From the IMG/VR virus record IMGVR_UViG_3300010233_000019, positions 1 to 54,940 of that record: DNA of 54,940 nucleotides; one strand, written 5' to 3'. The first letter of the stretch is position 1, and each line of letters opens with the position of its first letter. Below are positions 3,814-54,940 of this stretch, piece by piece. This DNA comes from a virus. Made by a program: the position numbers and the translations under genes. The notes beneath the pieces were generated by a model that did not search any database, was not told the origin of the DNA, and saw only the letters and a program-made list of their open reading frames with translations.

Positions 3814-4587
3814 ATGCGAATTCTAGTTCTTGGAGATGGCTTCACAGATCGATACCATCTCGCCACATCCTCAAAGCTCAGTGCGGAGGTGCCCATCCCC
3901 ATTTGCAAGATAGAGGGCATTGTGGACCTCCCCGGTGGAGCCCTGAATGTCCGCGAGAATCTCCGATCCCTTGCAGTGGATGGTCGCTTCCTGGTCCCAT
4001 CGGGGGAGCTTAATTTGCCCATCAAGAACCGTCTCATGGTTGGCGACCACCAAATCGCCCGATGGGACGAGAAGGACTGGTGTACACCATATATCCCAGC
4101 GGATCTCTTGGTCCTCCTTGAGGACTGGGATGCGATTATTGTGAGCGATTATGGCAAGGGTTCAGTTTCAAAGGAGGTGATCCAGATTCTACGGGACCTT
4201 ACGATCCCGGTCTTTGTTGACACGAAGTGCGATCCCACTCCGTGGATCGGCTCGGAGGCAGTGATGTTTCCGAACTTGGCCGAATACAAGCAATACGAAC
4301 AAGCATATGAGTGGTTTGGAAAGGTACTCCTCAAACGTGGCAAGGATGGCCTTGCGATGGTGGAGTATGGAAATGTGGTCCTGACGCGGCCAAGTGTGGC
4401 ATCCTACGTACGAAGTGTGAATGGTGCGGGGGATACAACCCTTGCAGCGTTTGTGGTTGCCGTGATGAGTGGGGGCACATTGGATTATTGTATGAAATAC
4501 GCCATGGCTGCAGCGGCAGTGAGCGTGGAGAATCCCCTAACCTACGCCCCCACTGAGGCTGAGGTCTCACAGAAACTCTTTGTCTAA
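3814..4587 (+). CDS. PfkB-family sugar kinase, heptose-7-phosphate kinase-like
   Basis: A 257-aa ribokinase/PfkB-fold protein. The N-terminus (V-L-G-D-x-x-x-D-R-Y, then L-S-A-E-V-P-I-P, then P-G-G-A-L-N-V near residues 42-48) follows the kinase half of HldE (RfaE). A P-x-K-x-R-L...Q-x-A-R-W-D region and IIVSDYGKG near 108-116 also match. The catalytic NGAGDTT loop is present near residue 205. HldE phosphorylates D-glycero-D-manno-heptose 7-phosphate at C1 for ADP-heptose synthesis. The C-terminal adenylyltransferase half of HldE is absent, and the protein is shorter than usual. GmhA at 49.1-49.6 kb and a GT9 protein at 20.9 kb support a heptose role. AAAAGGAAC precedes the ATG. Confidence 0.75.
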   Translation: MRILVLGDGFTDRYHLATSSKLSAEVPIPICKIEGIVDLPGGALNVRENLRSLAVDGRFLVPSGELNLPIKNRLMVGDHQIARWDEKDWCTPYIPADLLVLLEDWDAIIVSDYGKGSVSKEVIQILRDLTIPVFVDTKCDPTPWIGSEAVMFPNLAEYKQYEQAYEWFGKVLLKRGKDGLAMVEYGNVVLTRPSVASYVRSVNGAGDTTLAAFVVAVMSGGTLDYCMKYAMAAAAVSVENPLTYAPTEAEVSQKLFV

Positions 4588-5452
4588 CTACTACCAACTC
4601 ACGGAGGAGGTTCTGGAGGGACTCAAATGGGTCTCTCCAAAGTCCGCGAGGGAAGCCCTTGGTATCATTGGTAAGTATGAGTACGACCACTGTGCGGATG
4701 ACCCCATATACTGGCTCGATCAGACCCAACATGTGAAGACCAAGACCTGGCCAAAAGGGCTCCCCTATGTCTTCACAAAGGATCCGCATATTCTTTACTC
4801 TTGCAAGACATGCGGGGTGGAGATCTTTGGAGACAAGCGAGGACTCCATCTGGAGATGTCCCATAAGATCCTCGCCAAATCCATTCGGGAACTTGGAGAA
4901 CAATTTGAAGAACTCAACCCCACCCGACCCTTCACAGTGATTGAGTACATGCCTCCAATCGCCAGAGCGTGGCTTGATTCTCAATTCTTTGTGCTGGAGA
5001 AATCCCGCGACATGATGGCCACTTGGTTGATGGTGGCACTCTTCACGTGGGATGCCCTCTTCCACAAGGGGCGACAACATATCTTCCAATCCCAAGACGC
5101 GGGAAAAACCCTCGAGCTTGTCCAACGCTCAAAGATCATCTACGATAACACCCCAAAGTTCCTGAAGGACACCATCGGACCCGTGATGTTTGGGAAGGGC
5201 AATTCCAAATCCGGGGAGTTCTTTATCCTTCGCCAAGAGAGCGAGATTCTGGGGTTCCCCCAAGGACCCGATCAGATCCGCCAGTTCCACCCTTCAGGGG
5301 TCTTCACAGATGAAACGGCCTTCCAGGTCGAAGCAGCATCCAGCTTCGCGGCCATCAAACCCGCCATCCAACAAGGTGGCAAATACGTGGGGATCTCCTC
5401 AGCCAATCGAAGCTACTTTGAACTCCTCTGCCGAGATCGGAGTGACGGATGA
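4580..5452 (+). CDS. terL: large terminase, ATPase half of a split gene
   Basis: A 290-aa protein with the N-terminal half of a large terminase, the packaging motor. A deviant Walker A (EKSRDMMATW) is near residue 143. Walker B (VFTDETAF) is near 243 and the coupling motif (GISSANRSYF) near 273. The protein stops right after this, where a normal TerL continues into its nuclease. The nuclease half is encoded separately at 9238-10146. The N-terminus also has a C-x2-C-x11-H-x4-H zinc-finger pattern near residues 80-100. The only plausible start I see is TTG at 4580, overlapping the kinase stop. No good ribosome site is visible. Confidence 0.85.
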   Translation: MSNYYQLTEEVLEGLKWVSPKSAREALGIIGKYEYDHCADDPIYWLDQTQHVKTKTWPKGLPYVFTKDPHILYSCKTCGVEIFGDKRGLHLEMSHKILAKSIRELGEQFEELNPTRPFTVIEYMPPIARAWLDSQFFVLEKSRDMMATWLMVALFTWDALFHKGRQHIFQSQDAGKTLELVQRSKIIYDNTPKFLKDTIGPVMFGKGNSKSGEFFILRQESEILGFPQGPDQIRQFHPSGVFTDETAFQVEAASSFAAIKPAIQQGGKYVGISSANRSYFELLCRDRSDG

Positions 5453-6015
5453 TAACCCCCCTCACAGGTCGCCGCTTCATGGGAAACTGGGACACAGTCT
5501 TCCAGTCTATCATGGAGACCCAAAATGAACTCCAGGTCCCCGGAGAGATCGCGGAGTTTGGTGTCTTTGAAGGCGGGAATACCTTGAAACTTGCCCAATA
5601 TGGCCGGAAGGTTTGGGCGTTTGACACCTACGAAGGAATCCCCAAGGAGGACTTTGATCCAGAGGTGGACAAGGATCTCCCAGGAAAGTTTACTCCCCAG
5701 TGGTCCATCGCGGATCTCTTTCGGGGGTACCCCCAGGTGATCCCCGTGAAGGGTCGGTTTGCAGAGACCCTCCCCACAATCGCCCCGAGTTTGAAGTTTT
5801 GTTTTGTCTTTTTGGATTGTGATCTGTACTCCTCCCACAAACAAGTCCTCTCGTGGTTGCCTTCTCATATGTCTCGGAATGGAGTGATTCTCTTTGAAGA
5901 CTACTACCTCCTCCCTGCAGCAAAACAAGCTGCAGAGGAATTCAAACTCGAACAAGGTTTCGGGGATCAGGGAGTTCCTGCGAATCTTGTGGTATGGAAA
6001 GACTCCCATGTGTAA
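5449..6015 (+). CDS. TylF/macrocin-O-methyltransferase-like methyltransferase
   Basis: A 188-aa SAM-dependent methyltransferase-like protein. The GEIAEFGVFEGGNTLKLAQY segment near residues 33-52 is the SAM-binding loop of the TylF/MycF family. It is followed by VWAFDTYEGIP and, later, FVFLDCDLYSSHKQVLSWL and NGVILFEDYY. The acidic pair near FLDCDLY corresponds to metal-binding positions in these sugar O-methyltransferases. The ATG overlaps the terminase stop (ATGA) with GGAG upstream. It is the first gene of the cassette that splits the terminase and may decorate a sugar made by the phage or host. Confidence 0.75.
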   Translation: MITPLTGRRFMGNWDTVFQSIMETQNELQVPGEIAEFGVFEGGNTLKLAQYGRKVWAFDTYEGIPKEDFDPEVDKDLPGKFTPQWSIADLFRGYPQVIPVKGRFAETLPTIAPSLKFCFVFLDCDLYSSHKQVLSWLPSHMSRNGVILFEDYYLLPAAKQAAEEFKLEQGFGDQGVPANLVVWKDSHV

Positions 6016-9238: not shown

Positions 9239-10146
9239 TGCCCACTCTCCTCCATCAACAGCAAGGACTGACCATTGTGAAGAACGACAAGAACGGCTTC
9301 ACAGTGTGCACACTTCACTTCACTGCGGATCCAAAGAAACGCAGCCCCGAGTGGAAACGCGAAGCCTCACAGGGTCTCTCCAAGGCCAAGTTCGAACAAG
9401 AATACGAGATCTCCTATGATGCGTTGATGGGGGAGAGGGTCTTCCCAGAGATCAAAGATCGCCAGGATGAAATCATCTATGCCGAAGGCCCCTTCCTGGA
9501 GGATCATTGGCCCTCCGATCTCCCCATGTGGGGAGGCTTTGATTATGGGGCTCGAAACCCCTCGTCCTTCCACATCTACACCATCTACGATAAGGTGATG
9601 TATGCTTTGTGGGAACTGTATGAGCCTTGCAAGAATATCTTGGACTTTGCCCAACGCATGAAGGATTGCCCGTATTGGGGGCAACTCCGCTACATCGCAG
9701 CGGATCCAGACATATTCAACCTCAAGCAACGCGACATGCGGACGGGACTCCCCATCAGTGTGGAGTCACAATTCCGTAGCCTCGGAGTGAACAAACTCCT
9801 CCAAGGAAACACCGATGAGGCGGGGTGGATTGCCCAGGTCCAACGTCGCTGGCAGGGGCCGGAGATCACCTTCAAGATCCACGCCTCATGTCGAAACATG
9901 ATCAACGAATTTGGCGAAGCCACCTACGTCTCCATGAGTGATCGCCAACTTGAAACCTCCAACTACCGAGAAGCAATGGTAGACAAGAAAAACCACTCCC
10001 TGGATGATTGTAAATACTTCATGAACTCATGTCCCTCGGGAGGACTCAGAAAGGGAAAGCTTCCCTCGCTCGTGTCAAACTACAGCCCCTGGACCTCGCA
10101 ACGCGAAACGGGAAGTCTCTATGATTGGAGTAAAAAGGAATTCTAA
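9238..10146 (+). CDS. terL: large terminase, nuclease half of a split gene
   Basis: A 302-aa protein that matches the C-terminal half of large terminases. It opens with the linker usually found after the ATPase (K-N-G-F-T-V-x-x-L-H-F-T-A-D-P, then a helix and Y-E-I-S-Y-D-A-L-x-G-x-R-V-F-P). The RNase-H-like nuclease follows: GGFDYG near residue 100, AADPD near 157 and KKNHSLDDCKYF near 260 provide the acidic metal ligands. It cuts the concatemer during packaging. It should assemble with the ATPase half encoded 3.8 kb upstream. The portal gene follows four bases later. Confidence 0.85.
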   Translation: MPTLLHQQQGLTIVKNDKNGFTVCTLHFTADPKKRSPEWKREASQGLSKAKFEQEYEISYDALMGERVFPEIKDRQDEIIYAEGPFLEDHWPSDLPMWGGFDYGARNPSSFHIYTIYDKVMYALWELYEPCKNILDFAQRMKDCPYWGQLRYIAADPDIFNLKQRDMRTGLPISVESQFRSLGVNKLLQGNTDEAGWIAQVQRRWQGPEITFKIHASCRNMINEFGEATYVSMSDRQLETSNYREAMVDKKNHSLDDCKYFMNSCPSGGLRKGKLPSLVSNYSPWTSQRETGSLYDWSKKEF

Positions 10147-10149
10147 CCT

Positions 10150-12438
10150 ATGGCCATAGTTCCGTATGAACATTCATTTCCGGTAGACTTTGCACAGGGG
10201 GAGAACAAAGCCTCCCAACGAGCGGGATCCAATGAGGACGAGGCCCGCATTGCGGGATTCATCACCACATGGAGATCCCAACTTCGCTCTACATTCATCA
10301 CCCGCCGAAACATCTGGGACGATTGCTGGAAGCTCTATCGAGGGCTGGATGATTGGTCGAATAGGGAGGATTGGCAATCCAAGATTGTCCTTCCCAAGAG
10401 TTGGGCCTCCGTCAAGATGGCCACCAACACGATCAAGAGGCTCCTCTCCACTGCAAAGCGGCCCTATACAATTGAGTCGATCAACCCGGATGATCTTCTG
10501 ACTACCCTCCGGGCGGAGCAGATGACGGATCTCACCCGGGTCTTCCTGGACAAAGCTCACTTTCTTCAAGAATTCACTGAGGGCCTTGAGTGTGGGTTCA
10601 TCTTGGGCCTGGGAGTGTGGAAACTCTGGTGGGGTCTCGTCCCGCGCAAGAGGACCCGAGTTGAGACCCAAATGATGCAGATCCCCTATGGGGCTCCCGG
10701 GCAGTTCGGCCAAGGTGGCCAAGGCCCACAAGACATCCTCCAACACGAACCTGGCAAGGATGTGATGCCAGCCTTTGCCCAAGGCATGAAAGCCTATGGT
10801 GCTCAGGATGCTTCACAATACCCCACCCAACTCCCGCAGGAAGCATTGTCCCCACAGGGTTGGGGAGGTTTGGGGCTCGGCAACTTCGCCCCTCCCTCGA
10901 TGCTTTCCATCCCTCAGAAAAAGGTCATCCAAGAGGAAGTCCTCGAGGGGCAACTCTTTCTGCGTGCCGTGGATCCATACAACTTCCACTGGCTCCCCGG
11001 ATCAAAGCTCAACCGCTGGGTCGGAACGATGGAGGATGTGGAAATCCCCAAGTGGGAACTCATCAAGATGGCCGAAGCAGGACTCTTCCCGATGGAAAAG
11101 GTCAAGGCCATTCAACCCAAGCGAATTGATGAGCGGTACCTCATGCGGACCCTCCGATTCTCCGAGACAGTGCTGACCCAGAATGGCCCGAACTCCGACA
11201 CGGCAGTCTGCCAACTCACGGAGTACTTTGGTCCACTCATCTTTGATGGCAAGATCTGGGATGAAAATGCTCACGTAATCCTAGCTAACGACTCCACGGT
11301 TCTGCTCTACCAGCATAATCCCTTCTGGCATGGCAAGTCCCCATACATTGCATTCTCCCCATTGTCCCTGCCCTTCCGAACCGAAGGTGTGGGGCTCGTG
11401 GAGATGGTCCGGAATATTGACAAAGCTCTCTCCCAGCTTGCCAATCTTTCTGTGGATACTTTGATGTTTCGGCTTCTGCCACTCTTTGAGGTAGCTACAG
11501 ATGCTTTTGAGAATCCTGAAGATCTTGAAACTGGCATCACGCCTGGAAAGATGCTGCGTAAGAATCTTGGCTCGGCTGGGGTGGAAGGCATCCGGCCCGT
11601 ACGTTTCGAGGATGTCTCCTCGGGTACCGTCCAAGTCGCCGGACTCCTGGATCGTTCTCATCAGGAAGGTGCGCTGATCTCGGATGTCGCGGAGGGGATC
11701 CCTCGATGGAGGGGACAGCAAACCGCAACGGAAACCCAAGCCTTACAGCAACAAAGTGAGAGCTTCATGGGATCCATGGCGGGGGACATCGAGAGTCAGG
11801 CCTTGCAGCCCCTCGTGCAGATGGCGATGGATCTGATCTTTCAGTTCATTGATACCGCGAATGATCCCCGGATTGCATCGATCCTGGGCGTTGGTGCGGA
11901 TTCCCTCGCTGCGATGAGCCGAGAAGAGATTATGGAAATGATCCAGGGGGAGTACAAAGTGAAGGCCCTTGGCATCACAGGCCAGCTCCAGAAGGCCGAC
12001 ATGCTTCAGAATCTGGTCCAATTCATGAACCTCATCGGCCAGAATCCCCAAGCGTGGCTCCCGTATATCAACCAGGATGCGTTGCTGCGGAGAGTTCTTG
12101 AGGCCTTCCGCCCAACGATCCATGACATTGAGGATATCATCTCTGATCCGGCTCTGGCTGAGGCCAAAAAGGCTGAGATGCAGCAGAATGAAATCACCCC
12201 GGATCTGATCCGGCTCCTTCCGCAGCTTGCATCGATGGCTCAGGGCCAGCAACAGACTCAGCATGATCAGTCCTTGGATCTCCAGCGGATGCAACACGAA
12301 CGGGAATCCACCTTAATGGATCAACACATCCAGACCGCTCAGATGATGGCCCAACATGCCCAGCAAATGGGGGCCCAACAGATCCAGCAACAACAGGTCC
12401 AACAGCAAGCTGCCCCGCAGGGCCAGGGAGGTCAGTAA
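10150..12438 (+). CDS. portal protein
   Basis: A 762-aa protein located directly after the terminase, as portals usually are. It has W-x-x-x-Y-R-G-L-D-D-W near residue 60 and a Gly/Gln-rich insert near 175-250. It then continues with L-R-A-V-D-P-Y-N-F near 275, YQHNPFWHGKSPY-x-A-F-S near 385-405 and a helical clip/wing region. The long Gln/Met-rich helical tail (after about residue 690) fits the barrel extension of podoviral portals. Length is at the upper end for portals and close to N4-like ones. It forms the dodecameric DNA gate at the capsid vertex. Confidence 0.85.
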   Translation: MAIVPYEHSFPVDFAQGENKASQRAGSNEDEARIAGFITTWRSQLRSTFITRRNIWDDCWKLYRGLDDWSNREDWQSKIVLPKSWASVKMATNTIKRLLSTAKRPYTIESINPDDLLTTLRAEQMTDLTRVFLDKAHFLQEFTEGLECGFILGLGVWKLWWGLVPRKRTRVETQMMQIPYGAPGQFGQGGQGPQDILQHEPGKDVMPAFAQGMKAYGAQDASQYPTQLPQEALSPQGWGGLGLGNFAPPSMLSIPQKKVIQEEVLEGQLFLRAVDPYNFHWLPGSKLNRWVGTMEDVEIPKWELIKMAEAGLFPMEKVKAIQPKRIDERYLMRTLRFSETVLTQNGPNSDTAVCQLTEYFGPLIFDGKIWDENAHVILANDSTVLLYQHNPFWHGKSPYIAFSPLSLPFRTEGVGLVEMVRNIDKALSQLANLSVDTLMFRLLPLFEVATDAFENPEDLETGITPGKMLRKNLGSAGVEGIRPVRFEDVSSGTVQVAGLLDRSHQEGALISDVAEGIPRWRGQQTATETQALQQQSESFMGSMAGDIESQALQPLVQMAMDLIFQFIDTANDPRIASILGVGADSLAAMSREEIMEMIQGEYKVKALGITGQLQKADMLQNLVQFMNLIGQNPQAWLPYINQDALLRRVLEAFRPTIHDIEDIISDPALAEAKKAEMQQNEITPDLIRLLPQLASMAQGQQQTQHDQSLDLQRMQHERESTLMDQHIQTAQMMAQHAQQMGAQQIQQQQVQQQAAPQGQGGQ

Positions 12439-38037: not shown

Positions 38038-39228
38038 TTAGAGACGGATCACCTTGTCATTCTTGTGGGCGATTTGGCAAGAGCCAAGTAGCAACGTCTC
38101 CGCACTTTGGAGGAGACGGATGTTGTACTTCCGGCCAAGTTCCTTGAGGATCTGTTTCCACTCACAAGGGAGCATCCCGAGGATATCCTTTGCGGCTTGA
38201 GCTTCGAGGGTGGGAGGGACCACTGCGTCATCAATGCGACTTGCCATTCCACTGAGGAGTTTTGTCCCGAAGCGCACATCCACTTCATCCACCCATCCCC
38301 AGTGTTCCCGAGTCAGAGCCATGAGCATCGCAAGACGAAGCACCGTGTCACGAGAGCGATTCGCGTAGGGGAAGGTTGCCTTGGAGAAGAGTTTGAACCG
38401 ATTGTGGTACCAGTTCTCGTAGGTGTGGACTGCATCCTCAGTGAGGATCATCTCTCCAACGTGGGATGCCTTGTTAATGAGCCGGACAATCATCTCATTC
38501 CATCGGGAGTTGGACTCACGGATTGAGGCCTTCTCGGCTTGGTCGCTTACTTCGTATTTGAGGAGAGGGACCTGTCTCCCCCCAAGGGACTCCACGATGA
38601 TGAGGAAGCGCCCCATGAAGCCCCCCTCAAGGGCTCCATCTGGCATGGCTTTGTGTAGCCACTCCACAGTGGATCCGCAATGCATGGTGATGGTGGGGCG
38701 TTTGATGATTTTGGGTCCCCCAAAGGCCAGGTCTCCCTTGGTGGAGATGTCCACACTTTCATTGCTGGACAAGAGATTTGTGATCTCCTGGGTCATGGAC
38801 TTCTGGTAGTCCTTGCCTCCAAGAAAGGAGGTTAGTTCCCCAATTGGGAGATAGGCCGCAGCAGGATCCCCAATAGTAATTAAACGCTGATAGATGGTTT
38901 CTATTGTCCGGCCCCCAATGATAGGTATTGTGCCAAGTTTCTCGAGTTGGCGTTGAACAAAGTTGATTGCAGTGTCCTTCCCGATCCCGGAAGGTCCCAC
39001 GAGCATCACACTTTGGTTTGGGTATACCTTCCATCCTACCCCTCCTACTGGTTGTTGATCGATCCAGATGTTTCTCTTACATAGGGCCCCAATGAGCGAG
39101 ATCCCACATGCCACCTGATAGGAGAAGGGAACTTCCGTAGTGGAGAGAACCCTACACCAATCCTGGAGGAGAGAGTCCTTAGGGAGGAGGGTCCAGTTCA
39201 AGTCTTTGCCTCCCGACAAAAGTAACAT
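38038..39228 (-). CDS. DUF3987-like P-loop ATPase (primase-helicase-associated)
   Basis: A 396-aa protein with a Walker A motif (LVGPSGIGKDT near residue 75), a likely Walker B/sensor region (A-Y-L-P-I-G-E-L near 120) and T-I-T-M-H-C-G-S-T near 180. A C-terminal helical domain follows. This matches DUF3987-type proteins, which sit in replication modules of phages and mobile elements and often follow primase domains. It probably moves or opens DNA at replication. ATG 39228 is chosen because GAAGGAG precedes it. Confidence 0.7.
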   Translation of the reverse strand: MLLLSGGKDLNWTLLPKDSLLQDWCRVLSTTEVPFSYQVACGISLIGALCKRNIWIDQQPVGGVGWKVYPNQSVMLVGPSGIGKDTAINFVQRQLEKLGTIPIIGGRTIETIYQRLITIGDPAAAYLPIGELTSFLGGKDYQKSMTQEITNLLSSNESVDISTKGDLAFGGPKIIKRPTITMHCGSTVEWLHKAMPDGALEGGFMGRFLIIVESLGGRQVPLLKYEVSDQAEKASIRESNSRWNEMIVRLINKASHVGEMILTEDAVHTYENWYHNRFKLFSKATFPYANRSRDTVLRLAMLMALTREHWGWVDEVDVRFGTKLLSGMASRIDDAVVPPTLEAQAAKDILGMLPCEWKQILKELGRKYNIRLLQSAETLLLGSCQIAHKNDKVIRL

Positions 39229-39368
39229 AGCCACTCCTTCGAGACGGGGGAATGATGATAGAACGCCCCCTGGCAACACGGACATACTACATTTGTAGGA
39301 AGAGTATATTGATGCTCGTAGGTCCGGCCATGGATGCAGCGATCTCCAAAGTCTAGACAGTATTGCAT
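39198..39368 (-). CDS. very small zinc-ribbon protein
   Basis: A 56-aa protein with four cysteines in C-x2-C pairs (CPCC and C-Y-F-C, 17 residues apart) and extra Cys/His at the N-terminus, so a zinc ribbon is likely. GGGAGGACAAG lies before ATG 39368. It overlaps the DUF3987-like gene start by 31 bases and the previous small gene by 16. It may bind DNA or a replication partner. Confidence 0.6.
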   Translation of the reverse strand: MQYCLDFGDRCIHGRTYEHQYTLPTNVVCPCCQGAFYHHSPVSKEWLCYFCREAKT

Positions 39369-48422: not shown

Positions 48423-48577
48423 CTTTCTTGTACTCCTCGATTGTGGCGTTTAAAGCCTCTTTGCCGACATAGGATTTCACATTCCTGGCATACCCCAATG
48501 TCCTCTTCGTAGAGGCAGATCGAAATGAGTTCCTCCTCGGGGAACTCCCGAAGGCATACTTCACATTGGGGGTGCAT
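48419..48577 (-). CDS. very small double C-x2-C zinc protein
   Basis: A 52-aa protein with C-E-V-C near residue 5, C-Q-E-C near 31, and a basic end. The spacing is that of a short zinc ribbon. GAGG lies before the ATG, and the start is inside the last codons of WCK-11. Its stop overlaps the next ATG. Confidence 0.6.
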   Translation of the reverse strand: MHPQCEVCLREFPEEELISICLYEEDIGVCQECEILCRQRGFKRHNRGVQER

Positions 48578-48725
48578 TTAGGCCTCGTTGGAATTGGGTA
48601 GAACATAGTGGGTGGGATCTGTATTCGCAGATTTGAAGTAGTTCCAGGGCAAGAAGTTTACAAAGATAGTGTCCCCTAAGCACCCAAGGTTGAGTAGGGT
48701 TACATTGATGCCAAATTGTCCACAT
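48561..48725 (-). CDS. WCK small protein 11
   Basis: A 54-aa member of the window's WCK family. It starts M-W-T-I-W-H-Q-C and has the invariant C-K at residues 22-23 (Y-L-C-K-L-L-A). The loop between is 13 residues and carries a W-V-L. A first cysteine at residue 8 is shared with WCK-9 and WCK-10. Its ATG overlaps the stop of WCK-10 (TGATG), so translation is probably coupled. No known family is recognised. Confidence 0.7.
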   Translation of the reverse strand: MWTIWHQCNPTQPWVLRGHYLCKLLALELLQICEYRSHPLCSTQFQRGLNAPPM

Positions 48726-48892
48726 CAGGATTTTACCCATTCCACGGTGCAACATTCCTGGAGATAATCCAGGTGCTGGTGTTGGTAGACTAGAAGTCTA
48801 ACCTTACATGTATCCGAACCTCGAATTTCTCGGGGAATGATGCTATGCTGATACCGTCTACTGCCTACACAAGAGTACCAAATATTCCACAT
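48725..48892 (-). CDS. WCK small protein 10
   Basis: A 55-aa WCK protein beginning M-W-N-I-W-Y-S-C, with the invariant C-K at residues 29-30 (D-T-C-K-V-R). It ends in C-C-T-V-E-W-V-K. Its ATG overlaps the stop of WCK-9 (TGATG) and its stop overlaps WCK-11 (TGATG). The start M-W-x-I-W and extra Cys8 make it closest to WCK-11 and WCK-9. Confidence 0.7.
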   Translation of the reverse strand: MWNIWYSCVGSRRYQHSIIPREIRGSDTCKVRLLVYQHQHLDYLQECCTVEWVKS

Positions 48893-49074
48893 CAGCCACG
48901 CTCCAACCAAATCTTACAACACAAAGGGAAGTAGCGAACGCTGTATTCCCACAACTCTTTTTGGGCAAGAAGTTTACACCAAAACGTCTCCTGCACATAT
49001 GGGGTAACATATATATGGTTATTCACTGCTGTGAGGGAGGCATCACAACTGTACCAAAGCTTCCAACATCTCAT
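48892..49074 (-). CDS. WCK small protein 9
   Basis: A 60-aa WCK protein beginning M-R-C-W-K-L-W-Y-S-C, with the invariant C-K at residues 33-34 (F-W-C-K-L-L-A). Its ATG lies in the last codons of gmhA (ATGA), with GGAGGAG just upstream, which gives it one of the best ribosome sites in the array. The C-terminus has two adjacent cysteines. Confidence 0.7.
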   Translation of the reverse strand: MRCWKLWYSCDASLTAVNNHIYVTPYVQETFWCKLLAQKELWEYSVRYFPLCCKIWLERG

Positions 49075-49610
49075 AACTCCTCCATCAATCCATACACCAA
49101 AATATGGCTCAAGATGAGATGGCCATCCTCGCTGCGACCCATGTGCATCGCGGGGACAAGGAGGGTGTGATCTGCGAGATCCTTTGCATGCCCCCCATCA
49201 AAGCCAAGAACTGCAAGGGTTTCCATATCCTTCCCTCGTGCTGCGAGAAGGGCAGCGAGGATGTTGGGGGAGTTTCCACTCCCTGAGATCACAATAAGGA
49301 GATCCACAGGACTCCCGTACATCTCGAGTTGCCGAGAGAAGATGTGTTCGTAACCCTCATCGTTACCCAGGGCGGTGATCATGGCCAAGGACGTGAGACT
49401 TTGGGCCTTCACATGACATTGTTTGGTGAGATCCTGGGCAAAGTGATCCGCAAGGGAGGCACTGCCTCCGTTGCCACAGATCCATACCGTGCCACCTCGC
49501 TCTTGGCATTGGGTTAGGAGATCCCAAGCCTTGAGGATCTCCGGTTCGGAGATGGAGGCAAGATTCTTTTGCAAGGAGAGGAGATAGGTCTTGATGTATT
49601 TTGAGGTCAT
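49071..49610 (-). CDS. gmhA: sedoheptulose-7-phosphate isomerase-like SIS protein
   Basis: A 179-aa SIS-domain protein. V-W-I-C-G-N-G-G-S-A-S-L-A-D-H near residue 40 and V-I-S-G-S-G-N-S near 106 form the sugar-phosphate pocket. L-G-F-D-G-G near 133 and E-D-x-H-L-x-L-x-H near 160-168 supply the active-site helix. This is the GmhA layout, which turns sedoheptulose 7-phosphate into D-glycero-D-manno-heptose 7-phosphate, the first step of ADP-heptose synthesis. The usual Gln of the Q-E-x-x-H motif is replaced. ATG 49610 overlaps the stop of WCK-8, and its own stop overlaps WCK-9. Confidence 0.8.
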   Translation of the reverse strand: MTSKYIKTYLLSLQKNLASISEPEILKAWDLLTQCQERGGTVWICGNGGSASLADHFAQDLTKQCHVKAQSLTSLAMITALGNDEGYEHIFSRQLEMYGSPVDLLIVISGSGNSPNILAALLAARGKDMETLAVLGFDGGHAKDLADHTLLVPAMHMGRSEDGHLILSHILVYGLMEEL

Positions 49611-49762
49611 AGAGAGGACTCTGAGGGCTTTGGTTGTAGCATCCACATCCTACCAGGAGAGGTCTGGCATAAGTACTTAAGTTGAGAGGTAGCCCAAATC
49701 TTGCATGGATACGATGTCCATCTTAGGAACCTTCCATTCTTGAGGTACACTATTATCCACAT
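49607..49762 (-). CDS. WCK small protein 8
   Basis: A 51-aa WCK protein beginning M-W-I-I-V-Y, with the invariant C-K at residues 20-21 (S-Y-P-C-K-I-W-A) and a late M-W-M-L strand. ATG 49762 is chosen because it lies inside the end of WCK-7 and matches the family start. A longer in-frame reading upstream is a shadow of WCK-7. Its stop overlaps the ATG of gmhA. Confidence 0.65.
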   Translation of the reverse strand: MWIIVYLKNGRFLRWTSYPCKIWATSQLKYLCQTSPGRMWMLQPKPSESSL

Positions 49763-49908
49763 AGGGGTGCTTCGTGTTTGGTGAGTTTCCATGTCAAACG
49801 TGGGTAAACACGTTTGCAAGCCACATAAGCCCCAAGTGCAAAGAGCTTACATTCATACTCTGCCCAGGTTTTAACTACCCCTTCAGAGACCCAAGTGAGT
49901 TTCCACAT
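49753..49908 (-). CDS. WCK small protein 7
   Basis: A 51-aa WCK protein beginning M-W-K-L-T-W, with C-K at residues 20-21 (E-Y-E-C-K-L-F-A) and a third strand L-T-W-K-L-T near residue 40. With WCK-8 it has the shortest loop of the family (18 residues from Trp to Cys). No clear ribosome site is seen. A hairpin lies 14-37 bases upstream. Confidence 0.65.
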   Translation of the reverse strand: MWKLTWVSEGVVKTWAEYECKLFALGAYVACKRVYPRLTWKLTKHEAPLCG

Positions 49909-50124
49909 AAATTTGAACTATCCAGCCTGTTCCCGGCACGGCTGGTCTCCTGAAGGGGTCTGGCCACCATAGGGTCATAGACCCAGTACGACCAAGATAC
50001 CCAAAGCAGGAAGGATATATTATATGCCCTGCCTTGGCCCCTTCGCGTCCTACCCCCACTCCGTCACTGAGTTATGAGGGCACTGCCCACACAGGGGATT
50101 TGAACCCCTGCTGTGAGGTAGAAA
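49909..50124. other. gene-free spacer with two hairpins
   Basis: No coding frame is convincing here. A 6-bp stem CCAGCC / GGCTGG with inner pairing lies at 49922-49945. A second hairpin (50088-50115) has stem CAGGGG / CCCCTG around a 7-base loop that reads TTCAAAT on the minus strand, like a tRNA T-arm. Outer CACA / TGTG pairing lengthens it. No cloverleaf can be built around it. Confidence 0.5.
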
Positions 50125-50307
50125 TTAAACTTGCCGAAATCTCACCTCGTATCGGAGGAGGGGATGGTCAGGATTTCTTGCACCGCCCCTCGCGCACCTT
50201 GCAAGTGCAAGGATCTTGCAAGGGAAGGAAATGGCTTCTATATTACCATATGCTCGTAGAGGCTTCATCTCCCCGTAGTCATATGTATTCCACCAAACTT
50301 CCCACAT
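50125..50307 (-). CDS. WCK small protein 6
   Basis: A 60-aa WCK protein beginning M-W-E-V-W-W, with C-K at residues 30-31 (S-F-P-C-K-I-L-A-L-A) and a third strand Y-E-V-R-F near the end. AGGAGAG lies 11 bases before the ATG. It stands alone between two gene-free stretches, not overlapped by neighbours, so it is the clearest independent gene of the array. Confidence 0.7.
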   Translation of the reverse strand: MWEVWWNTYDYGEMKPLRAYGNIEAISFPCKILALARCARGGARNPDHPLLRYEVRFRQV

Positions 50308-50782
50308 TTCAGATGTGCTCTCCTAGAATTGGCTCCCCAGTACCAAGAGGGTTTCAGAACCCTCCTCGGCTCTATCACATCCCCCGCTGAGGAGCCAGGG
50401 GAAGCGGAGGCATTTCTGCCTCGGTGTGGTGGGGAATTTCACCCGCTGGACTGTGTTGAAGGCTTGGCAGAGCAAGGGCCTTTGCAATCAAACTCTCCCA
50501 AGGAAGACTCCTCTCAAAGGACACACATCCTTTGATTGGGAATGAGCTTTGGTGATTGGTCAGGACCTTTGGTGGCAAACCTAACAGCTACGCCTTTCAC
50601 GCCCACGTTTCTCCGTAAAGCTACAGAGAACAAAGAGGTCATATAGATTTACTCAAAGCAGATCTAGCAAGGCTTGCTAGATGGACTTCAATACATCCGA
50701 TCACTCCTTGGGCAACCGATGCCAAGCTCCAGATATCCTCTGGAGGGGTTTTAAACCCCGTGCAAAAAGGTAAGGCTACCCT
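50308..50782. ncRNA. candidate structured RNA region, gene-free
   Basis: This 475-bp stretch has no convincing coding frame on either strand but many perfect stems. These are GAGGGTT/AACCCTC (50347-50364), GAGGCA/TGCCTC (50407-50422), CAATCAAA/TTTGATTG (50485-50538) enclosing AAAGGA/TCCTTT, ATCTAGCAA/TTGCTAGAT (50662-50682) and CTCCAGA/TCTGGAG (50727-50745). At its high end TTTAAACCCCG (50750-50760) can pair with CGGGGTTTAAA (50790-50800) or with its own left side, which would be a switch. Strand and family are unknown. It could instead be decayed coding sequence. Confidence 0.35.
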
Positions 50783-50950
50783 TTAGGGGCGGGGTTTAAA
50801 GGTGAATTCCCAAGTGGGGTACCAATATTGCCATTTGGCTATCTGGATTGGGAAACGGAGTTTGCAATGCACATCATCGTTCTCGGGATGGGGCATCCAA
50901 TCTCTGTAAAGAGTCCCCTCTCGGCGTCGGGACCAGAGTTGCCAGGTCAT
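50783..50950 (-). CDS. WCK small protein 5
   Basis: A 55-aa WCK protein beginning M-T-W-Q-L-W-S, with C-K at residues 29-30 (V-H-C-K-L-R-F). A strongly aromatic third strand follows (K-W-Q-Y-W-Y-P-T-W-E-F). It starts in the stop of the upstream zinc protein (ATGA). Its end overlaps one arm of the inverted repeat at 50750-50800, so translation and RNA folding could affect each other. Confidence 0.7.
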   Translation of the reverse strand: MTWQLWSRRREGTLYRDWMPHPENDDVHCKLRFPIQIAKWQYWYPTWEFTFKPRP

Positions 50951-51435
50951 AACATATACCCCAGATGTCCATCCTTGTAAGCGTCAAAGACCTCATTGGG
51001 GTCATCCTCAAAGGATTTGGCCACCATCTCAAGGGTGGCTTGAGTGGGTTTGATGACCTCGGGTAAAGGCCAGAGGAGTTTCTTCCACCCATCAAAGAGG
51101 CGATTGAATTGTGGCCAAAGAACCGGGGTGTGTTGCATCCATCTCCACAGCCTCTCCCCATCACAGAGGTACACATTGTCGCTTTGGGAGAGGAGATTTC
51201 GGATGTGAGCTTCCAGTTCAATGGGGATGTGGTACTTCTCCGGCCAAAGGAGACCTCGGAATTTGTCATCAATGTAAACCCATGTCTGACAGGTCGAGGT
51301 GCGCTTCTCACAGTAGCGGCAGATGATACTTCGCCCATCCTGGGTCTCCGGAGAGGGGAGGAAGTTGAACTCGATCCCACTCGCGGTGATTGTGGAGAAG
51401 CCACAGAGAAGGCAGGTTTTGGAGATGGTACTCAT
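50947..51435 (-). CDS. zinc-binding hypothetical protein
   Basis: A 162-aa protein. The first 45 residues hold CLLCGF and C-R-Y-C-E-K, a zinc-ribbon pair 27 residues apart. The rest is helical and aromatic (L-W-R-W-M-Q, F-N-R-L-F-D-G-W-K-K-L-L-W-P). It starts in the stop of WCK-4 (TAATG) and ends in the start of WCK-5 (ATGA). Function is unknown. Confidence 0.55.
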   Translation of the reverse strand: MSTISKTCLLCGFSTITASGIEFNFLPSPETQDGRSIICRYCEKRTSTCQTWVYIDDKFRGLLWPEKYHIPIELEAHIRNLLSQSDNVYLCDGERLWRWMQHTPVLWPQFNRLFDGWKKLLWPLPEVIKPTQATLEMVAKSFEDDPNEVFDAYKDGHLGYML

Positions 51436-51620
51436 TAGAGTCGAGCCATGGTCATGGTTCTTGGGGAGGTGATGACCCGAAGATCCTCGGGGGCTGTGCC
51501 AGCTTCGAGGAGATCATTGTATGCCCAGCAAATCTTGAGTTTGCAAAGGGATGTTTGATAGGTATGCCATCTATCACTCCAAACATCCCTATATTGCAAC
51601 ACATATCGAAGTCTTCTCAT
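51435..51620 (-). CDS. WCK small protein 4
   Basis: A 61-aa WCK protein. It is the only member without the first Trp. M-R-R-L-R-Y-V-L-Q-Y takes its place, and W14 and W18 follow. C-K is at residues 26-27 (S-L-C-K-L-K). ATG 51620 overlaps the stop of WCK-3 (ATGA), and its TAA overlaps the ATG of the zinc protein. Confidence 0.6.
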   Translation of the reverse strand: MRRLRYVLQYRDVWSDRWHTYQTSLCKLKICWAYNDLLEAGTAPEDLRVITSPRTMTMARL

Positions 51621-51802
51621 CTGGGGACACTTTGAAAGCGGGCTCGGGGATATCGGTCTTGCCACTCCCGTAATACTGCGAGACTTTGGAGTCTACAGGA
51701 GCGGTCGGTGTTTTCGTTATATCGATGGGGGTACTGAGGATTATAAAGTTCCTTCCACTCAGGGGAGAGGTAGTCTTGCTGGAATAGGATTTTCCAAATC
51801 AT
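51617..51802 (-). CDS. WCK small protein 3
   Basis: A 61-aa WCK protein beginning M-I-W-K-I-L-F, with C-R at residues 36-37 (R-S-C-R-L-Q-S-L-A) and a 33-residue Trp-to-Cys interval. GGAGGCTTAGG lies before the ATG, in the end of the ATP-grasp gene. It is directly downstream of ATP-grasp and is coupled to WCK-4. Confidence 0.7.
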   Translation of the reverse strand: MIWKILFQQDYLSPEWKELYNPQYPHRYNENTDRSCRLQSLAVLREWQDRYPRARFQSVPR

Positions 51803-51805
51803 TTC

Positions 51806-52582
51806 CTAAGCCTCCTTCTGGGCCCATAAGGTGATTGCCCTCTTGTATGCTATGAGGGTATTCGCATCCTCCACGGACGGGGCGGAGTTTACCTCAAGGA
51901 TGACAAGGGTTCCGTCATCCTTTTCGAGGATGTCGCAAGCTCCATGAGTGTAGCCAAGGGCCCCCACCGCGGACTTGGCAACTTCCTTAAGCCTCTCGGG
52001 TCTTGGCCACTCCCCGTAGTTGAGATGCCACCCATTTCTGCGGCTCCGCACAAGGAGAGGAGAGATCCCAGGTTCTACTTTGACCTTCATCCCCGAGCGG
52101 ATGGCTTTGTCTCCGAAGATATGTTGGCGGTACTCGGCTTTGGAGGATACCACTTGCACCCAGAAGTCTCGTGAGAGCCATCGTTGGGAGAAGTGTTCTC
52201 CTCCGATGCGTTCGGGGGTTCCAGCTAGGATTCGAGGACGTTGGACTCGGTTACCTTTCTTGGTGATGATCCATCTCATCTCGGTTCGGCTTGGACTTGC
52301 GGGGACCCGGGTGAGTCTTTGGAATTCCGGACCCACAATGTCCCGGCCCTGAGTGTGATGGAGCTTACGGCCAAAGACTTCAATGCCATTCCGTACCCAT
52401 GCCTTAGCCACCTCCACATCCGTAGTGAACTCAGGACAAGCAAGTCCCGCAAGGCGAAATGCTTGGAGTTGTTCTAGGCCATTCTTGCCACCTTGGCCCC
52501 AATGGAAGGTAGGTCCGGGGGTGTCTTTGAGGGCTTCCTGCAATGCCCTCGTGGAAGGCCAATCTGGTCCGGTAATTTTCAT
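51806..52582 (-). CDS. ATP-grasp amidoligase-like protein
   Basis: A 258-aa protein with ATP-grasp motifs. F-G-R-K-L-H-H-T-Q-G-R-D near residue 70 is in the nucleotide lid. F-W-V-Q-V-V-S-S-K-A-E-Y-R-Q near 140 and ACDILEKDDGTLVILEVNSAPS near 218-238 supply the metal-binding Asp, Glu and Asn. Such ligases join a carboxylate to an amine through an acyl phosphate. Phage members occur with class-II amidotransferases and cyclotransferase-like proteins, as here. WCK-2 ends in its ATG (ATGA) and WCK-3 follows its stop. The substrate is unknown; a peptide or protein terminus is possible. Confidence 0.75.
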   Translation of the reverse strand: MKITGPDWPSTRALQEALKDTPGPTFHWGQGGKNGLEQLQAFRLAGLACPEFTTDVEVAKAWVRNGIEVFGRKLHHTQGRDIVGPEFQRLTRVPASPSRTEMRWIITKKGNRVQRPRILAGTPERIGGEHFSQRWLSRDFWVQVVSSKAEYRQHIFGDKAIRSGMKVKVEPGISPLLVRSRRNGWHLNYGEWPRPERLKEVAKSAVGALGYTHGACDILEKDDGTLVILEVNSAPSVEDANTLIAYKRAITLWAQKEA

Positions 52583-52737
52583 CTAGGGATCCCCCTAAAA
52601 AGAACGATTTTATACTCAAAGTCGGCCACTAGTCCACATCTTTGCTGTGCGAGAAGGCGGCAGGGGTATCTTTCAGATGTGGCAAACCCCCAAGGATAGT
52701 TTGGTCCCATTCGATACATCACTTTCCATCCCCTCAT
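52579..52737 (-). CDS. WCK small protein 2
   Basis: A 52-aa WCK protein beginning M-R-G-W-K-V-M-Y-R, with C-R at residues 26-27 (Y-P-C-R-L-L-A) and a third strand F-E-Y-K-I-V-L-F. Its start lies in the stop of the upstream zinc protein (ATGA), and its own stop lies in the ATG of ATP-grasp (ATGA). It is therefore exactly wedged between the two genes. Confidence 0.7.
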   Translation of the reverse strand: MRGWKVMYRMGPNYPWGFATSERYPCRLLAQQRCGLVADFEYKIVLFRGIPR

Positions 52738-53207
52738 CCCTTCGCCTCTTCCCGTTTCCTCATCACCGCCACATCAAAACATGTCTTGGCCGGGGAGAAG
52801 GAGCGGATTTTGATCTTGAGATGTCCAGGGATCCTGGACATCTTGTTGATCTGCACGGCGAGGTTCTTGAGCTGGGTGGGGACAAAGCGGGGATTCTTGT
52901 ATATCCCTCCCCCACAGATCTTGCAAACCAAGGACGAATCCTTCTTGAAAGGCCAATCCCTATCACACTCCGCGAGGATGTGATGGAAGAAGGCTTGTTT
53001 TTGCTTGTGCCCTCGGAGGGTGATTTGGATGTGTTTGTCTTTGTTGTCAACCATTGATGTGGTCCTTGGGGCGAGGGGTTTGATGGGGATTCCCTTCATG
53101 CCAATCTCCGCTCGATGTTTGTCAAAGCGGCACTGAGGGCACTCCCCATTGTAGGTGTAGATATTCCTGGCCCCACACAGAGCACATGTGATGAGGATAT
53201 CACTCAT
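52734..53207 (-). CDS. two-zinc-ribbon hypothetical protein
   Basis: A 157-aa protein with C-A-L-C-G and C-P-Q-C in the first 26 residues, and a second C-K-I-C-G-G-G near 95. The C-terminal half is basic and strand-rich (Q-L-K-N-L-A-V-Q-I-N-K, H-L-K-I-K-I-R-S-F). It might bind nucleic acid. It overlaps WCK-1 by eight bases at its start and WCK-2 at its end. Confidence 0.55.
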   Translation of the reverse strand: MSDILITCALCGARNIYTYNGECPQCRFDKHRAEIGMKGIPIKPLAPRTTSMVDNKDKHIQITLRGHKQKQAFFHHILAECDRDWPFKKDSSLVCKICGGGIYKNPRFVPTQLKNLAVQINKMSRIPGHLKIKIRSFSPAKTCFDVAVMRKREEAKG

Positions 53208-53406
53208 CTGGGGTCACTCCTGCGGGGACGATGATATATTCCCATTTTTCAAGATTATAGTTGGTGTACCGTTCGGATATAAGTTCGACCTTGCATGGCC
53301 ATACCCTTCGGCCAGCTTCTGGGGAACCCCAAAGGGGATACCATCTTGGGTATTGAATCTCCCCCCTCCAGGTGGAACGATTGCGAAACCACACCTCCCA
53401 TCCCAT
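53200..53406 (-). CDS. WCK small protein 1
   Basis: A 68-aa WCK protein, the longest of the family. It begins M-G-W-E-V-W-F-R, has a 35-residue aromatic loop and C-K at residues 38-39 (V-W-P-C-K-V-E-L). The third strand is K-W-E-Y-I-I-V. AAAGG lies just before the ATG. It overlaps the start of the two-ribbon zinc protein by eight bases. Confidence 0.7.
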   Translation of the reverse strand: MGWEVWFRNRSTWRGEIQYPRWYPLWGSPEAGRRVWPCKVELISERYTNYNLEKWEYIIVPAGVTPDE

Positions 53407-53410
53407 AGGG

Positions 53411-53731
53411 TTACCTTTGTTTCTTTCCCATCAAAAGCTCATCCATATCCAGCTCCTCTGGGACCTTTGCCTCAGCTTGGGCACCCTCGGTCATCACGAA
53501 CTTTGCGGATTGCTGGGCACTCTTGGTGAGGGTGTCGCTCATCTTGGCAAGAGTCTCAAGAGTCTGAAGACGCTCCTCGGGCGTAGCAAGCTCCCCGGTG
53601 AGCCTCTCCTTGAGATGCCCGAGTTGATCCTCAATGAGATCTCGGATTTGCTTGTGGAGCTTTAGGGTTTGTTTGAGATCAGTCTCCAAGAGGGAGAATG
53701 GAGTCTCCTTAGTGCCTTGGGGTCGAGCCAT
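53411..53731 (-). CDS. coiled-coil hypothetical protein
   Basis: A 106-aa, almost fully helical protein (L-L-E-T-D-L-K-Q-T-L, I-R-D-L-I-E-D-Q-L-G-H-L-K-E-R-L, L-E-T-L-A-K-M). It has a short acidic then basic end. Small terminases can look like this, but without a DNA-binding domain the call is not supported. It lies between the amidotransferase and WCK-1, and its ATG directly follows the upstream stop. Confidence 0.5.
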   Translation of the reverse strand: MARPQGTKETPFSLLETDLKQTLKLHKQIRDLIEDQLGHLKERLTGELATPEERLQTLETLAKMSDTLTKSAQQSAKFVMTEGAQAEAKVPEELDMDELLMGKKQR

Positions 53732-54649
53732 CTAGTTCACTCCTTCGGAGGTTTCCATCTTGAGAGAATCCAAAAACTCCTGCCATTGCAACTCCAAACA
53801 CGCAGGGCAGACGAGTTCTTTTTTGGTGTCCACCTTTGTGGTCCGGCAGATGTAGCAGATATCCGTGCTCATCCAATACCCAGTACCCACCGGACGAGAC
53901 GATGTGCTATTCCACGGTGGGTATGACCCAACTTCGCCAGAGTTCGAGTAGTCCGGATATAGGGTGACTTTTTTTTTGCTCGCTTCAAAGGGAAGGGTTT
54001 CGATTTTGAGAAGCGTGTCTCTCCCATCTTGGGTGGTGAGTTGATACTTCACAAACTCATCGATTTGCCAATTCGTTTTGATTGGGTTCCCAAGGATCCT
54101 AGCGATCTTACTGAGAGGAGTGTATGTGGAACAGAAAACAAGTTCTCCCCCCTCGAGGGTGGCTACGTGGAGATCTTGGGTTCCAAAGCGACAGAAGTTG
54201 AGTTGATCTTCTTCATACCACGCCAGGGCTCCATAGCCCTCGAGGCCTTCCACACCTTTGCCTTCCGCAAAGTTCGCATAGATATGCATCGAGTCCACTT
54301 CAAACTTGCGATTCCATCGGGTGTTCAGATCTGTGTGGGTCCGGATGATTCCATTGTGAATGCCAATCACCCGTCCACCATCGGCTTTGGGAAACTCGAA
54401 GGGATGTGCATTGTCCAGGAGCTTTGGAGAGCCATGTGAGGCACTTCGGGTGTGGAAGATCCCCCGATGTCCGGACCACTCTGGGGGACACTCAAAGGAA
54501 TCCACAATGGACCCAATGTGTTTGATGATGGTATAGCCATCCGAGGCTCCCCAAGAATCCGTGCCTCTCGCGGACATCTCAATCCCAAGATACGGAAGCA
54601 TTGCCCGAGTTGAAGGGGTGATGCGACTTACCCCAAATATTCCACACAT
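53732..54649 (-). CDS. class-II glutamine amidotransferase (Ntn hydrolase) with zinc ribbon
   Basis: A 305-aa protein. ATG 54649 is chosen because it puts the catalytic cysteine at residue 2 (M-C-G-I-F-G-V), as class-II amidotransferases need. G-I-F-H-T-R-S-A-S-H-G near 70, A-H-P-F-E-F near 85 and I-G-I-H-N-G near 96 fit the glutamine pocket. No synthetase domain follows. Instead, residues 265-290 form a C-x2-C...C-x2-C zinc ribbon. It would release ammonia from glutamine or act as an amidohydrolase on a glutamyl product. It sits beside ATP-grasp and cyclotransferase-like genes. Confidence 0.75.
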   Translation of the reverse strand: MCGIFGVSRITPSTRAMLPYLGIEMSARGTDSWGASDGYTIIKHIGSIVDSFECPPEWSGHRGIFHTRSASHGSPKLLDNAHPFEFPKADGGRVIGIHNGIIRTHTDLNTRWNRKFEVDSMHIYANFAEGKGVEGLEGYGALAWYEEDQLNFCRFGTQDLHVATLEGGELVFCSTYTPLSKIARILGNPIKTNWQIDEFVKYQLTTQDGRDTLLKIETLPFEASKKKVTLYPDYSNSGEVGSYPPWNSTSSRPVGTGYWMSTDICYICRTTKVDTKKELVCPACLELQWQEFLDSLKMETSEGVN

Positions 54650-54681
54650 GTAAGTTAAGTGTCCTTTTGGTTTAGATGGTG

Positions 54682-54940
54682 TTACTGAAGATTCCGAAGA
54701 TACTCCCGCCAATCCCCGGAGGGGATAAGTGGCTCTCCATCTCGATGGGGGAAGGTATATATTTCACACTTCCTGATAACTCCGTGGGTAACATCAAATA
54801 CGGAGGCTGTAAGTCTCCGATAAAGCCGTGGATGTCCCTCGATTTGATCAAGTAAGTGGAGAGTCCCTGGGGTAACTTGGTATATCTCCCCTCGGATGAT
54901 GTTAGTCCCGTCGAGGACAAGACTTACTCCCGGGACTTGG
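54682..54940 (-). CDS. gamma-glutamylcyclotransferase-like protein (5' end missing)
   Basis: At least 85 codons, open at the window end. I-x-x-G-x-[IV]-Y near the left end, then L-x-x-L-D-x-I-E-G-H-P-R-L-Y-R-R, V-x-V, C-E-I-Y-T-F and P-S-G-D-W-R-E-Y-L. This is the C-terminal two-thirds of the GGCT/AIG2-like fold. The catalytic Glu is probably the one in D-Q-I-E-G. Enzymes of this fold release gamma-glutamyl groups as 5-oxoproline. With ATP-grasp and amidotransferase it completes an amidoligase-type set. Confidence 0.7.
   Translation of the reverse strand, partial: QVPGVSLVLDGTNIIRGEIYQVTPGTLHLLDQIEGHPRLYRRLTASVFDVTHGVIRKCEIYTFPHRDGEPLIPSGDWREYLRNLQ

Follow-up and report, generated by a model that had tools for sequence, protein, structure and literature searches.

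The right end of IMG/VR virus record IMGVR_UViG_3300010233_000019, a linear contig of 54,940 bases analysed in full and referred to below as the window, carries what its sequence identifies as a contig-truncated member of an already known phage amidoligase cassette. The window encodes a tailed phage, with a portal, a major head protein, a DNA polymerase, a primase and a Sak4-like annealing protein. The cassette is located on the minus strand and is read from the contig end inwards; the contig terminates inside it, so that the GGCT protein is cut. The original prediction had placed here an ATP-grasp ligase, a class-II glutamine amidotransferase (GATase II) and a GGCT/AIG2-like protein, and family profiles and conserved catalytic residues agree with all three assignments:

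54682..54939, minus strand: GGCT/AIG2-like protein, C-terminal 85 aa, 5′ end off the contig (Pfam, PHROG, catalytic Glu)
53732..54649, minus strand: class-II glutamine amidotransferase with N-terminal Cys and C-terminal zinc ribbon, 305 aa (GATase_6, cassette profile, alignment)
51806..52582, minus strand: RimK-like ATP-grasp ligase with an insertion of ∼40 aa and a shortened N-terminus, 258 aa (PHROG, cassette profile, catalytic residues, AlphaFold2 model)

The ATP-grasp ligase matches PHROG 2599, ‘ribosomal protein S6 glutaminyl transferase’ (E=3e-16), as well as a hidden Markov model (HMM) of phage cassette ATP-grasps (E=4.9e-17); in Pfam it has a weak match to RimK (E=0.22). The catalytic residues of the RimK family (ExR, D and ExN) are present, and in an alignment of 32 sequences, the window ligase and 31 relatives, E150xR152, D217 and E230xN232 are invariant. 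The profile of 32 cassette ATP-grasps finds its best PDB matches in RimK (1.5e-8). A fold search with the AlphaFold2 model of the window ligase (mean pLDDT 75, low confidence at 92-127) gave PsnB, PruB and RimK as the nearest structures, with LysX/ArgX also found. The ligase thus resembles RimK, the ribosomal protein S6 glutamate ligase, in predicted fold and catalytic residues, and differs from it by the 40-aa insertion, a shorter N-terminal domain and an identity of only ∼15% in the structural match.

The window GATase II has its start codon, ATG, at 54649 and the protein begins MCG. It matches Pfam GATase_6 (E=3.5e-6) and an HMM of the cassette GATases (E=6.5e-16). Alignment with the cassette GATases of phages CVT22 and T5S1 shows Cys2, the motifs NAHPF and HNG and the C-terminal CxxC/CxxC ribbon in common. 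The truncated GGCT protein is detected by Pfam PF06094 (E=5.6e-13), PHROG 2520 (E=2e-11) and the cassette profile (9.8e-10), and keeps the catalytic Glu (LDxxEG). Among phage records the best relative of the window GATase comes from locus L011 (MW202637, ctUh1700; L numbers are our locus labels), with 31% identity over 224 aa; in that locus a large amidoligase with Cys-rich stretches is encoded immediately upstream of the GATase.

That the three enzymes belong to a phage amidoligase cassette, as originally proposed, is supported by the same families in phages UFV-P2, Bjorn, CVT22 and T5S1 and in 80 IMG/VR loci. The cassette occupies ORF21-29 (ORF, open reading frame) in the LUZ24-like phage UFV-P2 (PMC3890496), gp45-50 in Bjorn and gp50-65 in CVT22. 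Annotated relatives (Bjorn, CVT22, T5S1, Klyazma, Pecta, O4, CW02, phiM6 and others) carry a COOH-NH2 ligase, Amidoligase_2, GATase II and ATP-grasp, often together with a class-I amidotransferase (GATase I) and GGCT. Searching IMG/VR with a profile built from ten phage ATP-grasps yielded 531 relatives, 80 of which were kept as loci; in one collection, 312 records match the cassette ATP-grasp. Of the IMG/VR loci, 36 have nearly complete flanks; 35 of these contain the COOH-NH2 ligase, 35 Amidoligase_2 and 35 GATase II, 30 contain GATase I and 15 contain GGCT. The window ATP-grasp and GATase are ∼23-33% identical to the aligned cassette members; close relatives of the window ATP-grasp, DNA polymerase and portal were found neither in IMG/VR nor in phage records. 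The cassette occurs in hundreds of phages, and the window adds to them one with no close relative among the records searched.

Searches of the 54.9 kb with phage-protein profiles, on a contig that ends inside the cassette, gave no match to the two glutamine synthetase (GS)-like ligases, COOH-NH2 ligase (PF14395) and Amidoligase_2 (PF12224), nor to a class-I GATase or peptidase C26-like protein. These genes of the window's phage may lie beyond the contig end; since the contig ends inside the cassette, we refrain from describing the window as a reduced variant. Joining the two contig ends into a circle to complete the GGCT gene was considered and rejected, because the YGTL motif was not recovered and the contig has no terminal overlap. 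Positions 1-33 of the window are an exact inverted copy of 1643-1675, 1.6 kb further in; this may be an artefact of assembly at the contig end.

Compared with the cassettes of LUZ24-like, Zobellviridae and phiEco32-related phages, the window has the same RimK-like ATP-grasp, class-II GATase with zinc ribbon, GGCT and small genes in between. It differs in that WCK genes (see below) stand between the enzymes, the GS-like ligases and GATase I are not seen and the cassette lies away from primase/helicase: the primase (38041-39285) is ∼12 kb from the ATP-grasp, while adjacency is usual, though not essential, in annotated relatives. The small genes around the enzymes, all on the minus strand, are as follows:

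53411..53731, minus strand: 106-aa protein, no Pfam/PHROG family (ORF with Shine-Dalgarno-like sequence)
53200..53406, minus strand: WCK-1, 68 aa (pattern and alignment)
52734..53207, minus strand: 157-aa protein with CxxC pairs, zinc-ribbon-like by sequence (zinc-finger matches only sub-threshold)
52579..52737, minus strand: WCK-2, 52 aa, stop overlapping the ATP-grasp start in ATGA (pattern and alignment)
51617..51802, minus strand: WCK-3, 61 aa, starting 3 nt after the ATP-grasp stop (pattern and alignment)
51435..51620, minus strand: WCK-4-like, 61 aa, weaker match (alignment)
50947..51435, minus strand: 162-aa protein with CxxC pairs, no Pfam/PHROG family (ORF)
50783..50950, minus strand: WCK-5 (pattern and alignment)
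50125..50307, minus strand: WCK-6 (pattern and alignment)
49753..49908, minus strand: WCK-7 (pattern and alignment)
49607..49762, minus strand: WCK-8 (pattern and alignment)
48892..49074, minus strand: WCK-9 (pattern and alignment; AlphaFold2 model)
48725..48892, minus strand: WCK-10 (pattern and alignment)
48561..48725, minus strand: WCK-11 (pattern and alignment)

The WCK mini-proteins are a real family, with ORFs beyond chance: the strict pattern gave 10 ORF matches (48561-53406; 8.9 kb scanned) against 0.05 expected in mononucleotide shuffles. Across the alignment of 11 paralogues invariance is limited to one Trp and one Cys, with Lys or Arg next after the Cys. WCK-9, modelled with AlphaFold2 from ten paralogues, has a predicted beta-beta-alpha-beta fold with mean pLDDT 79 and the Cys-Lys at the helix start. 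Matches of WCK proteins in Pfam and PHROGs were at chance level, a PDB fold search with the model gave nothing at E below 0.1, and no relatives of these proteins were found. In the 157-aa and 162-aa proteins the CxxC pairs are N-terminal, and both genes lie between cassette and WCK genes.

The interleaving of WCK genes with the enzymes was correctly described in the original prediction, as the positions of WCK-2 and WCK-3 on the two sides of the ATP-grasp confirm. The further suggestion of a conserved WCK-cassette link was not upheld: homologous phages do have the cassette without WCK genes, and in none of ∼100 other cassette loci was a WCK cluster found, only isolated chance matches. The link is therefore not a conserved one, and a lineage-specific link is possible.

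Cassette relatives have a different feature among their small genes. About a dozen cassette phages each encode 5-17 small proteins, mostly unrelated in sequence, that have one phage-specific C-terminal tail in common and whose genes are interleaved with the cassette:

L009 (CVT22): 17 ORFs ending LENE
L013 (Klyazma): 10 ORFs ending LENK
L014 (Pecta): 16 ORFs ending LEND
L016 (CW02): nine ORFs ending LE(E/D)N plus one residue
L019 (RHph_N3_13): 13 ORFs ending mostly GDT(D/E)(D/E)DI
L007 (IMG/VR): 15 ORFs ending mostly GDT(D/E)(D/E)DI
L006: seven ORFs ending L(E/D/K)(D/E)WL
L002: nine ORFs with LEDWM-like ends
L075: nine ORFs ending F(K/R)GN
L066, L080: acidic tails
L055: tail KGNK
L005/L069: tail ENE

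With the tail removed, a phage's tailed proteins separate into 5-12 clusters without phmmer-detectable similarity, thus the tail was not simply inherited with one duplicated gene. Some of these clusters hold 2-5 paralogues, and there may be more distant homology among the tailed proteins, many of which look like small beta-barrels. No description of the tails was found in the open-access literature and, as far as that literature shows, they are apparently undescribed in cassette relatives. In L017 (Sinorhizobium phage phiM6) an acidic EEETL end is shared by three small ORFs and may be a further tail type; this is uncertain, as internal control positions score higher.

One fixed rule was applied to cassette and random loci alike: a locus scores if three or more of its ORFs of 45-200 aa agree, in a reduced alphabet, in their four C-terminal residues. 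Among 74 cassette loci cut to 10.5 kb a median of 7 score, and among 121 random IMG/VR loci with a length of 8 kb or more none does (Fisher p=0.0009, a value that is optimistic because the scoring loci include L094, a low-complexity LF match, as well as CVT22 and CW02, where the tail was first noticed or confirmed, and because the phages are not mutually independent). None of the 200 random IMG/VR loci in all (1.78 Mb) scores. These control loci were drawn by random 15-mers, since a PhoH scan meant as the control set gave only six loci, phiEco32-like, and was dropped.

What is established directly is the three family memberships, the conserved catalytic residues and the co-occurrence with GS-like ligases in relatives. 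We tentatively favour the reading, which we rate as somewhat short of an even prospect, that the cassette ligases modify small phage proteins, with the tails as a mark in some phages. In such a scheme the RimK/LysX-like ATP-grasp would phosphorylate a carboxylate of an acceptor, a small protein encoded by the phage, and join to it an amino acid or amine; the class-II amidotransferase would supply ammonia from glutamine to the ATP-grasp or a partner ligase; and the GGCT protein would remove gamma-glutamyl products, releasing 5-oxoproline. The acceptor would thus be a protein and not a free metabolite, and the small proteins encoded between cassette genes would be the acceptors. The fold-search neighbours of the window ATP-grasp (PsnB, PruB, RimK, LysX/ArgX) act on carboxylates of peptides or carrier proteins. 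For the window phage itself we infer small-protein acceptors by relationship, with support from the tailed relatives; here the WCK proteins are encoded in that position, without a shared tail.

Several observations weigh against modification of small phage proteins. Neither the WCK nor other window proteins share a tail, the largest group with a common end being two, and the C-termini of the 11 aligned WCK paralogues are mutually different. Tails occur in no more than a minority of cassette phages, and protein tagging can therefore not be generalised to all of them. The interval between GATase II and ATP-grasp, which holds the GS-like ligases in 66 of the 80 loci with four core genes (a few loci being the same isolate twice; in eight the ligases are upstream of GATase II), contains in the window the 106-aa protein, WCK-1, the 157-aa CxxC protein and WCK-2, and GS-like ligases and GATase I were not seen in the 54.9 kb, which end inside the cassette. 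The literature searched contained no biochemistry for any cassette member.

Other explanations have to be weighed against this reading. The cassette might make a free peptide-like metabolite or modify the host envelope, for example against superinfection, the small proteins being unrelated early host-takeover genes. We regard this as tenable, if on the doubtful side. In other organisms GGCT and amidotransferases of class-I/C26 type have gamma-glutamyl metabolites as substrates, which counts in its favour, and so do the tailless state of most cassette phages and the lack of WCK genes in other cassette loci; it leaves unexplained why tails are found in cassette phages but not in random ones. It is also the published suggestion for phiEco32-type sets, namely cell-wall modification or metabolite synthesis (PMC10580990, citing Iyer 2009). 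Modification of a host protein, such as a ribosomal protein or RNA polymerase, by the ATP-grasp and amidotransferase, in the manner of RimK on S6 and with no phage small protein as substrate, seems improbable: the RimK homology of the ATP-grasp agrees with such a role, but two conserved GS-like ligases, often with GGCT, suggest a multi-step product, and the shared tails sit on phage proteins.

Two further alternatives concern the small proteins. WCK proteins could be the ligase substrates in the window phage, recognised by the invariant Cys-Lys/Arg site or by their fold. On either side the ATP-grasp gene is overlapped or adjoined by a WCK gene, and the proteins make a real family with a compact predicted fold that would place CK at the helix start; yet WCK genes are absent from ∼100 other cassette loci and reach 3 kb beyond the ATP-grasp, and early phage operons are usually dense in small genes, which makes us consider this option distinctly improbable. 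Still less probable is that the tails in relatives reflect nothing more than ribosome-binding sites for the following gene, at the DNA level, and are not protein tags. In CVT22, Klyazma and Pecta the tail codons TTG/CTG-GAG-AAT are at Shine-Dalgarno spacing from the next start with GAG nearly fixed, and part of the pattern in LENE-type tails can therefore be a ribosome-binding site. However, codons vary synonymously in the GDTDEDI, L(E/D)(D/E)WL and F(K/R)GN tails, LEND and LEEN tails are kept with GAA/AAC codons even in the absence of an overlapping next gene (for example Pecta 5331-5543, CW02 10010-10216) and the CVT22 cassette enzymes are tailless, though some of their genes abut or overlap the next gene. 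Pure Shine-Dalgarno sequences were thus accepted as partly true for the LENE type and rejected for the others on codon evidence.

Modification of small phage proteins would have parallels in known systems. RimK adds Glu to a protein C-terminus. In the LysX reaction the substrate becomes attached to LysW at its C-terminal Glu, within an EDWGE motif (PMC10433800). LysX/ArgX with LysW are thus a case of a RimK-family ATP-grasp working on the C-terminus of a small protein, and the LEDWM and LEDWL tails of L002 and L006 resemble EDWGE; in contrast to LysX/LysW, the window is tailless and the tails of relatives are on several unrelated proteins and not on one zinc carrier. Graspetide ligases (PsnB, MdnC) are the top structural neighbours of the modelled window ATP-grasp. 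Unlike graspetide precursors, WCK proteins have no repeated Ser/Thr-Glu core peptide that could be seen on inspection of their alignment. Pupylation (Pup with PafA), where a GS-like ligase acts on the C-terminus of a small protein, offers a parallel only at the level of the idea, as a system that may work alike; no such ligase was seen in the window. A wider version of the favoured reading, in which the cassettes are protein-conjugation systems acting on unrelated small phage proteins with a phage-specific tail, in the manner of LysX with LysW or of pupylation but with up to a dozen or more different carriers in each phage, and WCK proteins have the same role through their shared fold in the window phage, seems to us rather unlikely. 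The tails in CVT22, Klyazma, Pecta, CW02 and RHph_N3_13 give named candidate substrates, proteins of ∼70 aa, in cultured phages, and the function of the cassette thereby becomes testable.

Two other genes of the window may be mentioned. A SIS-domain (phosphoheptose-isomerase-like) protein is encoded inside the WCK array at 49071-49646, and a PfkB-type kinase (PHROG 8133) near the left end at 3814-4587; together they are reminiscent of heptose metabolism.

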